A stretch of DNA of 64,000 nt, taken from contig NZ_JAEPJQ010000001.1 in NCBI RefSeq assembly GCF_016827605.1, positions 1,232,183 through 1,296,182 of the forward strand, in the 5' to 3' direction. The notes beneath the pieces are model-generated. The model worked only from the letters and a program-made list of their open reading frames with translations, was not told where the DNA came from and searched no databases. The translations under genes were made by a program, and so were the position numbers. The DNA comes from Hyunsoonleella ulvae (GTDB lineage: Bacteria; Bacteroidota; Bacteroidia; Flavobacteriales; Flavobacteriaceae). Below, piece by piece: positions 27,922-49,987 of the stretch (its first letter is position 1; every line of letters begins with the position of its first letter).

Positions 27922-27946
27922 GTCATTTCCGCAAGGGCGGGAATCT
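27922..27946 (+). repeat. REP-like palindrome upstream of purD
   Basis: ATTTCCGC (27925-27932), loop AAGG and GCGGGAAT (27937-27944) form a stem with one mismatch. The surrounding GTCATT...AATCT matches the palindromes around the GIY-YIG gene at 48545-48960. It lies 13 bases before the purD ATG. Confidence 0.7.
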
Positions 27947-45290: not shown

Positions 45291-45635
45291 ATGAGTTATC
45301 AGAAAAGTGGCAATGCCATAGTAGATAAAAGTTTTTATTTTGCTTGTGATATTGTTAATTATGCTGAAGAACTCAAAGAAAAACGTTTTTTTGAAATAGC
45401 AAATCAGTTACTAAAGTCAGGTACCAGTATTGGTGCTAATGTGAGAGAATCTCAACGTGGTGTTAGTACAAAAGATTTTAAAAATAAATTAGGAATAGCT
45501 CTTAAGGAAGCTGACGAAACATCTTTTTGGTTAGACGTTATAGAAGAAACTAGTATTTATGAAGTTCCTTCAAAATTAAGAGAAGATTGTGAGGTTTTGA
45601 TTCGACTGTTAGTGTCAATTATCAAAAATTCATAA
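45291..45635 (+). CDS. four-helix-bundle protein (S23 / 23S rRNA intervening-sequence family) inserted in the atp operon
   Basis: A 114-residue all-helical protein with SKSFYFA-like helix one, the conserved KSGTSIGANVRESQRG turn, ALKEADETSFWLDVI and EVLIRLLVSIIK. This is the family found in rRNA intervening sequences and related to Avd of diversity-generating retroelements. It separates atpA from atpG, which are normally adjacent. It is bordered by a palindrome on the left and an octamer array on the right, and its start region GAATTATGA is the inverse of that array. Function unknown. Confidence 0.85.
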   Translation: MSYQKSGNAIVDKSFYFACDIVNYAEELKEKRFFEIANQLLKSGTSIGANVRESQRGVSTKDFKNKLGIALKEADETSFWLDVIEETSIYEVPSKLREDCEVLIRLLVSIIKNS

Positions 45636-48107: not shown

Positions 48108-48542
48108 ATGAAAATAAAAATCATTAATACATCCAATCACGATTTACCACATTATGAAACTATAGCATCAGCAGGAATGGATTTACGAGCTAATATATCA
48201 GAACCTAGAGTTTTAAAGCCTTTAGAACGCAGTATAGTGGGTACAGGCCTATTTATAGAGCTTCCAGTAGGTTTAGAGGCACAAGTACGTCCAAGAAGTG
48301 GTTTAGCGGCTAAAAAGGGAATTACAGTGTTAAATGCCCCCGGAACCATAGATGCGGATTACAGAGGAGAGATAGGCGTAATTCTTGTAAATCTATCCAA
48401 TGAAGATTTTACCATTAATAATGGGGAGCGTATTGCACAATTAGTTGTAGCTAAGCATGAGCGTGCTGAATGGGAAGAAGTAGAAGAATTATCTTCAACA
48501 GAAAGAGGTGCAGGTGGCTTTGGGAGTACTGGAACAAAATAA
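48108..48542 (+). CDS. dut: dUTP diphosphatase
   Basis: A 144-residue trimeric dUTPase that hydrolyses dUTP to dUMP. All five family motifs are visible: [41 protein letters not shown] and the C-terminal [14 protein letters not shown] palindrome begins two bases after its stop. Confidence 0.95.
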
Positions 48543-48544
48543 AT

Positions 48545-48564
48545 ATTCCTGCGAAAGCAGGAAT
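48545..48564 (+). repeat. REP-like palindrome, left of the GIY-YIG gene
   Basis: ATTCCTGC and GCAGGAAT form a perfect 8-bp stem with a GAAA tetraloop. The GAAA loop on the plus strand gives it the opposite orientation to the two copies downstream. Confidence 0.85.
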
Positions 48565-48580
48565 CTCTGAATCGATAGAA

Positions 48581-48895
48581 ATGAAGTTATGGTATGTTTA
48601 TGTAATGGCAAATAAGTCGAACGGAACTATTTACATAGGTATAACGAATGAAATTGAAGAAAGAGTCAAGGAACATAAATTAAAGGTATTTCCTAAATCG
48701 TTTACGGCAAAATATAATTGCGATAAATTAATTTATTTTGAAGAGTTTGAAAATGGAGAAGAGGCTGTAAAAAGAGAAAGGCAGTTCAAAAAGTGGAAAA
48801 GAGATTGGAAGATTGATTTGATAGAAGATATGAATCCAAATTGGATAGATTTAAGTGTTAATTGGAATTTTAATTACAATACATTACGAAAATAA
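48581..48895 (+). CDS. GIY-YIG nuclease family protein
   Basis: A 104-residue single-domain protein from ATG at 48581. The GIY-YIG core is WYVYVMANKSNGTIYIGIT (residues about 3-21), then the helix with the catalytic Arg region (EERVKEH) and the FEEFENGEEAVKRERQFKKW segment holding the metal-binding Glu. This matches the small UPF0213/YhbQ-like type. It sits between dut and a nucleotidyltransferase and is enclosed by REP-like palindromes in inverted orientation, 17 bases before the ATG and 9 to 65 bases after the stop. A role in moving or processing those repeats is inference. Confidence 0.88.
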   Translation: MKLWYVYVMANKSNGTIYIGITNEIEERVKEHKLKVFPKSFTAKYNCDKLIYFEEFENGEEAVKRERQFKKWKRDWKIDLIEDMNPNWIDLSVNWNFNYNTLRK

Positions 48896-48902
48896 ATAAT
48901 GA

Positions 48903-48923
48903 TAATCCTGCTTTCGCGGGAAT
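48903..48923 (-). repeat. REP-like palindrome, right of the GIY-YIG gene (copy 1)
   Basis: AATCCTGC-TTTC-GCGGGAAT forms a stem with two mismatches. Read on the minus strand it is ATTCCCGC-GAAA-GCAGGATT, matching the left copy. Confidence 0.75.
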
Positions 48924-48943
48924 AATGTTTAACCTAAAAAAAG

Positions 48944-48962
48944 ATACCCGCTTTCGCGGGCA
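48944..48962 (-). repeat. REP-like palindrome, right of the GIY-YIG gene (copy 2)
   Basis: CCCGC (48947-48951), TTTC and GCGGG (48956-48960) form a perfect 5-bp stem with the same loop. It ends directly before the start region of the nucleotidyltransferase gene. Confidence 0.75.
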
Positions 48963-48967
48963 TGTGT

Positions 48968-49987
48968 ATGAAAATAATAGTCCCAATGGCAGGTCGAGGT
49001 TCTCGATTACGTCCGCATAGTTTAACCGTACCAAAACCATTAATACCAGTTGCTGGCCAACCTATAGTACACCGTTTGGTAAAAGATATAGCTAAGGTAT
49101 TAAAACAACCTATAGACGAAATCGCCTTTGTACTTGGAGATCCTGCATGGTTTGGCGATGATGTAGTGTCAAGTTTAGAAGATTTAGCTAAAAGTTTAGG
49201 TGCAAAAGCGTCTATTTACCGTCAAGATAAACCTTTAGGTACAGGGCATGCCATTATGTGTGCCAAGCCATCATTATCAGGGCCAGCTGTAATTGCATAT
49301 GCAGACACGTTAATTAGAGCAGAGTTTGATTTAGACCCAGAGGCAGATAGTGTGATTTGGACAAAACAGGTAGAGAACCCAGAAGCTTATGGCGTTGTGA
49401 AGCTAAATACAAACAATGAAATTGTAGAGTTAGTTGAAAAGCCAGAAGTATTTGTAAGCGATCAGGCCGTTATAGGGATCTACTATTTTAAAGATGTCGC
49501 GGTTTTAAAAGGGAAACTACAAGAAATACTAGATGAGAACGTTATGAATGGTGGCGAGTACCAAATTAATGATGGTATTAAGCGTATGATGGCAGATGGT
49601 AAGATTTTTAAAACAGGAACGGTTGATGAATGGATGGACTGCGGAAATAAAACCATTACTATAGAGACTAACCAACGTATGCTGGGCTTTTTAGAAGCTG
49701 ATGGCGAAGAGCAGTTAGTGGCTGCTTCGGCGAAGTTAGAAAATTCGAACATCATCAAACCTTGTTTTGTAGGCGAGGATGTTGTTCTCAAAAACACAAC
49801 CATTGGACCATTTGTTTCTGTAGGGAATGGTACGGTTATTGAAAACTCAACGATTGAAAACAGTTTAATTCAAACCAATACAGCAATAAAAAATGCCAAG
49901 TTAAACAATGCCATGATTGGAAATAACGTAAAATACAATGGCGAGTTTACAAGTATTAGTATTGGCGATTATTCGGTTTTAGAATAG
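48968..49987 (+). CDS. sugar nucleotidyltransferase with C-terminal left-handed beta-helix
   Basis: A 339-residue protein with the pyrophosphorylase loop MAGRGSRLRPHSLTVPKPLIP at the N-terminus, ending in hexapeptide-like repeats (NSTIENSLIQTNTAIKNAKL). It would join a sugar-1-phosphate to a nucleotide; the exact pair is unknown. ATG at 48968 is chosen because the family begins MKIIVPMAG; an ATG six bases earlier abuts the REP palindrome. Confidence 0.82.
   Translation: MKIIVPMAGRGSRLRPHSLTVPKPLIPVAGQPIVHRLVKDIAKVLKQPIDEIAFVLGDPAWFGDDVVSSLEDLAKSLGAKASIYRQDKPLGTGHAIMCAKPSLSGPAVIAYADTLIRAEFDLDPEADSVIWTKQVENPEAYGVVKLNTNNEIVELVEKPEVFVSDQAVIGIYYFKDVAVLKGKLQEILDENVMNGGEYQINDGIKRMMADGKIFKTGTVDEWMDCGNKTITIETNQRMLGFLEADGEEQLVAASAKLENSNIIKPCFVGEDVVLKNTTIGPFVSVGNGTVIENSTIENSLIQTNTAIKNAKLNNAMIGNNVKYNGEFTSISIGDYSVLE

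Follow-up and report, generated by a model that had tools for sequence, protein, structure and literature searches.

The small GIY-YIG nuclease gene between dut and a nucleotidyltransferase gene in Hyunsoonleella ulvae, together with the palindromes around it, probably forms a REP-nuclease-REP element of the CGTC-tagged REP superfamily. We hold this reading with moderate confidence; in it, the nuclease would recognise and cut the stem of the repeat, and host repair would copy the element and its dimers. This subfamily of small GIY-YIG nucleases adjoins or sits inside tagged REPs in many phyla, and residue 67 of the nuclease covaries with base 6 of the REP stem at the locus and, with exceptions, genome-wide.

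The nuclease gene and its neighbors in the window, the whole stretch of 64,000 nucleotides that was analyzed, are listed in Table 1. Compared with the palindrome core ATTCCYGCGAAAGCRGGAAT, the left copy is exact, the right inner copy has one mismatch, and the right outer copy has two, while 100 shuffles gave no match. The enclosure of the gene by inverted palindromes given in the preliminary description is therefore upheld, although its statement that all copies share one core applies strictly to the left copy, as the second to fourth copies deviate. The distant fourth copy is present with its tag and tail, but its core is likewise inexact. A genome-wide count, as had been proposed, gave 49 strand matches to the core at up to two mismatches, with a few sites matching on both strands, and the reversed-pattern control gave none.

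Table 1. Features of the nuclease locus and the solo repeat (positions counted from the first letter of the window).
Feature	Position	Strand	Remarks
dut (dUTPase), left neighbor of the GIY-YIG ORF	48108..48542	+	Insertion follows the dut stop codon
Left REP	48545..48567	+	Stem-loop ATTCCTGC-GAAA-GCAGGAAT (48545-48564); gene-side TCT tail; GTC tag lost; 2 bp past the dut stop
GIY-YIG nuclease ORF, 104 aa	48581..48895	+	Presumed catalytic Glu66; putative stem-reading Lys71
Right inner REP, inverted	48904..48923	-	Core with 1 base changed; likely the right end of the inserted unit
Right outer REP	48944..48963	-	Extends into the nucleotidyltransferase ORF's first in-frame ATG; solo REP of probably older date
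Nucleotidyltransferase gene, right neighbor	48962..49987	+	ORF span
Solo REP	27922..27946	+	GTCATTTCCGCAAGGGCGGGAATCT; GTC tag and ATCT tail; imperfect stem, core not exact

The ORF matches PF01541 (E 2.6e-18) and has the superfamily motif with conserved Tyr, Arg, and Glu. Residues Y7, Y18, R28, E66, and N85 are invariant among 36 sequences, and we take their catalytic roles to be those of the corresponding residues in I-TevI and UvrC; Glu66 is presumably equivalent to the catalytic Glu of the family. On the right side, homology with relatives mostly sets in at residue 2-3 of the nucleotidyltransferase, which makes the second ATG (48968) the more likely start. All three palindromes at the gene are without the CGTC/TGTC tag, and an inner REP similar to the right inner copy occurs at the locus of a relative (L232). 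The window element is likely old and partly eroded.

The window palindromes are eroded CGTC-tagged REPs, a superfamily membership that had gone unrecognized in the preliminary description. Many copies in the same genome read GTCATTCCTGC..GCAGGAATC, several of them carry the GTC tag, and their tag, AT-starting stem, and tail match the superfamily as defined in the available part of Di Nocera et al. (2013; PMC3733652). According to that part, CGTC REPs have a CGTC or TGTC tag, a stem of 8-9 bp starting with AT, a loop of 4-5 nt, and a CCA tail, and form inverted dimers with spacers of 20-100 bp. The same part states that REPs are mostly intergenic, that CGTC REPs seem to be without a dedicated transposase, and that CGTC units do not flank the tyrosine transposase genes of CGTC-positive species. 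No GIY-YIG gene is named there, whereas in the present case such pairs enclose a nuclease gene. A logo of 181 near-nuclease copies, in which GTC and AT are imposed by the detector (the specificity of GTC being checked separately by the triplet swap below), has sharp ends at CGTC and CCAG, with C (86%) or T (12%) before GTC and a tail of C (98%), C (91%), and A (97%). Stem starts other than AT gave 0-12 copies near the nuclease gene versus 182 for AT.

The window genome has eight GIY-YIG matches. Tagged REPs with their tags outward lie on both sides of two of these genes (L032 and L036), hairpins were seen by eye at two loci where the strict detector failed (L030 and L034), and four loci are without a CGTC-type REP (L031, L033, L035, and L037). 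Two of the latter, L031 (G000:C1:819888-820103) and L033 (G000:C1:1021621-1021839), are small GIY-YIG genes that adjoin a complete tRNA gene (Leu-caa and Asn-gtt, respectively), with a partial, broken copy of seemingly the same tRNA on the other side, and may represent a tRNA-targeting sort. Elsewhere in the window (45291-45635), a 23S_rRNA_IVP (S23) ORF between atpA and atpG adjoins the palindrome AATCCTGAATTCAGGATT. S23-family genes were rejected as a second REP-linked gene, since a CGTC REP was near none of the 11 S23 loci of the window genome.

Beyond the window genome, a tblastn search with the window protein matched 33 records of a plasmid collection. Of the 15 records fetched, the strict detector found a tagged REP no more than 250 bp from the nuclease in 10 (in L061 only weakly), and the other five have hairpins with altered tags as judged by eye, on one side only in L059. 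Because the broad nuclease alignment was too divergent for a scan of the collection, a five-sequence proteobacterial alignment was used, with one genome per species. The seeds of this alignment were plasmid loci already known to bear REPs, and the resulting 80 loci, the best 80 of 587 as ranked by protein similarity alone, are therefore a subfamily chosen with that knowledge. Their titles include Proteobacteria, Planctomycetes, Anaerolineae, Nitrospirae, and Elusimicrobia. A GTC-tagged REP lies within 250 bp of the nuclease in 69 of the 80 loci, on both sides in 47, and is missing within that distance in 11. REP density is 4.35 per kb near the nuclease versus 0.076 per kb beyond 1 kb (57-fold), and replacement of the tag by 17 other triplets gave 0-3 near copies each, against 182 for GTC.

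Of 757 other ORFs at these loci, 3 have REPs on both sides and 62 on any side, compared with 27 and 58 of 72 nuclease ORFs by the same count, which uses the longest ORFs (whose starts may overlap REPs) and omits eight of the 80 nuclease ORFs near contig ends. The palindromes are thus not equally frequent beside unrelated genes, equal frequency being the outcome that the preliminary description had named as speaking against a nuclease-REP module. A role of the REPs as downstream terminators only was rejected, given their presence on both sides at 47 loci. Longer arrays were also observed: the REPs right of a Rhizobium nuclease gene (L054, 3311-3878) recur with a period of ~271 bp, like a tandem amplification, and a long array of alternating REPs lies downstream of a Photobacterium nuclease gene (L063, 3465-5798).

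REP number follows nuclease presence in two family surveys. The first covered 79 genomes of one family centered on a Lysobacteraceae bacterium, with 0-208 REPs per genome (0-1 in the reversed control). Of the 29 genomes with a strong nuclease match, 27 have at least 10 REPs, versus seven of the 50 others (p 1.6e-12, kinship ignored). Exceptions are G072 and G088, with 29 and 34 REPs and no nuclease match, and two genomes with a strong match and only 3 and 6 REPs. At the best 30 nuclease loci of this family, a near REP was found at 23, on both sides at no fewer than 18 (L185, where the match lay elsewhere than the script assumed, counting as one-sided only), and was missing at seven. In the window's own family, three or more REPs of one stem type occur in 25 of 53 versus 5 of 67 genomes (p 1e-6, kinship ignored). 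The strict REP test was passed there at nine of 30 nuclease loci (one match, L275, being misplaced in this test and correctly placed in the relaxed one), and several further loci have related hairpins with other stems (GTCATTTCGA.., GTCATTGCGAG.., and GTCATTACGAG..) by eye. A relaxed 5-bp test found GTC at 15 of 30 loci against 14 for the next triplet, GAG (47 versus 21 copies), and as this is marginal by loci, the case is weaker in the window's family. One relative has four GIY-YIG copies in ~6 kb (G198:C1:1187326-1193552).

The insertion site itself was surveyed at the best 30 nucleotidyltransferase loci from 120 genomes of the family, comprising the window genome and 29 relatives, and dut lies within 1 kb upstream in all 30. 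A GIY-YIG gene is present in the interval in the window genome and five relatives and absent in 24, two of which have another ORF there. The earlier statement that the module interrupts the dut-nucleotidyltransferase neighborhood is thus borne out, and the gene is not conserved in all relatives at this place without palindromes, the other outcome that the preliminary description had named as speaking against its module. Two relatives (L215 and L212) have a decayed nuclease copy at the site. Several gene-less relatives retain a lone REP before the nucleotidyltransferase gene (two by the detector, the rest by eye), for which reason the outermost right palindrome of the window is probably an older solo REP. 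In Azospirillum lipoferum, a block of REP dimer, nuclease gene, and REP dimer sits between sufB and sufC, and three close relatives have neither the gene nor a REP at this site, so that the whole block was gained or lost there.

In Sphingobium, seven records match the occupied-site query over at least 99% of its length, of which two were read. In the strains TomTYG64 and TomTYG74, the exact spot that REP-gene-REP occupies in relatives holds a single palindrome with a tag at each end, and TomTYG72 has no double-tagged palindrome at the nuclease site. The double-tagged palindrome is either a pre-insertion target or a deletion scar. Palindromes with GTC at both ends were noted at L240, L241, L105, and L201, either at the empty nuclease site (Sphingobium) or near a nuclease gene, and are rare (6 of 429 strand counts).

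Adjacent REP pairs differ in spacing depending on whether they enclose the gene. Among the 67 gene-enclosing pairs, 43 have their tags outward, with REPs 300-400 bp apart in 35 of the 43, and among the 132 gene-less pairs, 58 have their tags outward, with a spacer below 100 bp in 56 of the 58. Within an element, the left and right 12-nt stretches inside CCAG are 41% identical, versus 26% for shuffled ends (n = 72; highest of 1000 shuffles, 31%). In genome G073, 13 dimers and the nuclease element have the REP and CCAGYGACCTTGC in common, and in G107, five dimers and the nuclease element have a similar CCAGYGACTTTG in common. The score of the element ends against the dimers of their own genome was matched by 0-24 of 20,000 random windows, and that against the dimers of the other genome by 2-996 of 20,000; since the cross-genome ends also score, the subterminal motif is partly common to both. 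In these two genomes, terminal inverted repeats are accordingly common to the gene-bearing element and gene-less copies, as in transposons, and the gene-less tag-out pairs look like MITE derivatives of the nuclease element. No excess of target-site duplication was found at any length above 3 among 43 elements and 58 dimers. Palindromic targets outside the nuclease element were rejected, as the excess over shuffled sequences is weak (mean of 2.71 versus 2.32 of 8 matches, sd 0.16, 72 elements).

The nuclease and the repeat also vary together. Among 148 nuclease loci with a tblastn row, 112 have near REPs, and 108 of these entered a Mantel test and 98 the residue-base tests, which retain two duplicate pairs (L060/L067, the same gene, and L087/L189, the same genome). 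Nuclease distance correlates with stem distance across the set (r 0.52, 0 of 2000 permutations, n = 108) and inside one family (r 0.39, 0 of 5000 permutations, n = 29). The nuclease tree of that family has two clades (95/88), with a purine at stem base 6 in nine of nine loci of one and a pyrimidine in 20 of 20 of the other, a split that was picked after viewing the tree. Four genomes hold both clades, and each copy is accompanied by its own REP type. Profiles of the two clades predicted the base class on 94 separately fetched loci (AUC 0.87, p 1e-7; 28 purine and 41 pyrimidine, after dropping 23 loci without a usable ATNCC stem and two ties). Most of the base-class signal is carried by residue 67, in the motif REKQLK-[K]-W, which corresponds to K71 in the window protein.

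Residue 67 is Lys in all 58 of the 98 loci with C at stem base 6. With G (31 loci), it is Glu in 21, Gly in three, Asp and Asn in two each, and Ala, Thr, and Lys in one each; with A, it is Ala in four and Arg in one; and with T, Lys in two and Ala and Gly in one each. On a nuclease tree from which columns 67 and 69 were left out, there are 10 changes of base class, and the residue follows in 4.9 on average of five strictly independent contrasts, for which the best possible p is 0.0625, so that p < 0.05 is unreachable. Among dispersed REPs, the purine type makes up 31 of 542 in 10 Lys-only genomes, 185 of 508 in seven mixed genomes, and 237 of 465 in 13 Lys-free genomes, sums that include five genomes with fewer than 5 REPs or similarly small counts (the rank test used 10, 7, and 10 genomes). 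Purine-type REPs are few or missing, against the trend, in G046 and four Lys-free genomes; the Lys-free G058 and G103 fit the code as Ala/Gly with T-stems, and the Lys-free G086 and G095 have pyrimidine-type REPs, contrary to it. The window protein, with Lys71 and T/C stems, is compatible with the stem code. That the resident nuclease recognizes the REP stem is well supported. An AlphaFold2 model of the nuclease (mean pLDDT 94.4) places E66 and K71 on one helix.

The nearest solved folds to this model are UPF0213 (1zg2 and 1ywl), which is the closest solved relative by both sequence and fold, and Slx1, by fold, each with weak E-values. Slx1 works with Slx4 and acts on branched DNA. To our knowledge, neither UPF0213 nor Slx1 has been linked to REPs. 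GIY-YIG enzymes are also known as homing nucleases, and these likewise have a patchily distributed GIY-YIG gene and read a sequence, as is suggested here. However, no intron or intein is involved in the present case, and the partner is a dispersed repeat family instead of one conserved gene. The REP-RAYT systems (REPtrons and REPINs) have in common with the present element a dedicated gene flanked by REPs, gene-less doublets, and coevolution of enzyme and repeat, but their enzyme is an HUH/Y1 transposase and their tag GTAG, as opposed to a GIY-YIG nuclease and CGTC. Because the enclosed enzyme is unrelated to RAYT, the element does not belong to the REPtrons, and REP-RAYT is the nearest working analogy. 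The analogy drawn in the preliminary description is supported, far past this one locus, by enrichment, orientation, dimers, co-occurrence, and residue-base covariation, whereas cutting and moving by the nuclease are its putative part.

In the mechanism that we propose, the small GIY-YIG nuclease would recognize the REP stem, residue 67 would contact the stem near the cut site, and the repeat would be cut as duplex or hairpin. Host repair may then place copies of the element, and of its gene-less two-repeat derivatives, at new sites; as neither a transposase domain nor a target duplication was found, we infer copying by repair over strand transfer. Selfish spread would be the reason for the persistence of the element, and mobilization would most simply account for the pairing, the existence of dimer derivatives, and the patchy distribution.

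A different form of mobility, which we consider possible but rather unlikely, is that the nuclease cuts pre-existing REPs or double-tagged palindromes and the gene alone is copied by recombination between stems, the repeats spreading by other means. The homing habit of GIY-YIG enzymes, the lack of a seen target duplication, and the single double-tagged palindrome of TomTYG64 and TomTYG74 at the REP-gene-REP site are consistent with it, but that palindrome could be left over from a deletion, the block was gained or lost as a whole at the three Azospirillum sites, and REP number and REP type track the presence and type of the nuclease. It is improbable that the nuclease serves the host by trimming or regulating REP hairpins in DNA or RNA, with the near REPs used for self-regulation; its resemblance to UPF0213 and to Slx1, an enzyme of branched DNA, would suit such a function, but the patchy presence and decayed copies do not, nor does a putative base-reading residue that varies with REP type.

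That the gene came to lie between REPs by chance, as a passenger in intergenic space that tolerates both, seems very improbable. Both the nuclease gene and, according to the available part of PMC3733652, most REPs are intergenic, but other ORFs are rarely flanked, the S23-family loci of the window genome have no REP, and the residue-base covariation, unexpected for a passenger, largely contradicts this reading unless it is a lineage artefact. Finally, there is hardly any likelihood that the REPs are moved by a RAYT-type Y1 transposase, with the nuclease as cargo. A Y1 family match is present in 24 of 33 genomes, but the other nine have none, and a CGTC REP lies within 300 bp of the Y1 gene in only two of 30 Y1 loci (at four of the 30, which hold no REP, the match lies elsewhere than the script assumed) and in none of three in the window genome. 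RAYT was accordingly rejected as the REP mover, and the lack of association with Y1 genes agrees with the description of the CGTC superfamily.

A literature search found no publication linking CGTC REPs with a GIY-YIG nuclease, preprints and most subscription papers being outside its scope. RayT and a GIY-YIG endonuclease are named in one gene table, unlinked, in the available part of PMC9465073, and no REP-GIY-YIG link was found in that of PMC6006769. More broadly, we see an even chance that CGTC REPs across Bacteria belong to one unrecognized mobile class, including the dRS3-like repeats at a Neisseria copy. Its elements, of 350-450 bp, would consist of two inverted REPs around one GIY-YIG gene with a stem code (Lys-C, Glu-G, and Ala/Gly-A or T), and would spread themselves and MITE-like dimers by cutting and host repair, without a transposase. 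The nuclease may supply the driver that a widespread repeat family has been missing: what moves CGTC REPs was left open by Di Nocera et al. (PMC3733652), and a dedicated GIY-YIG nuclease with a stem code would answer this. If the stem code is true, exchanging a single residue and a single base pair would put REP mobility to the test, many orphan ‘GIY-YIG nuclease family’ genes would be explained, and a sequence-reading nuclease of roughly 100 aa would be on offer.
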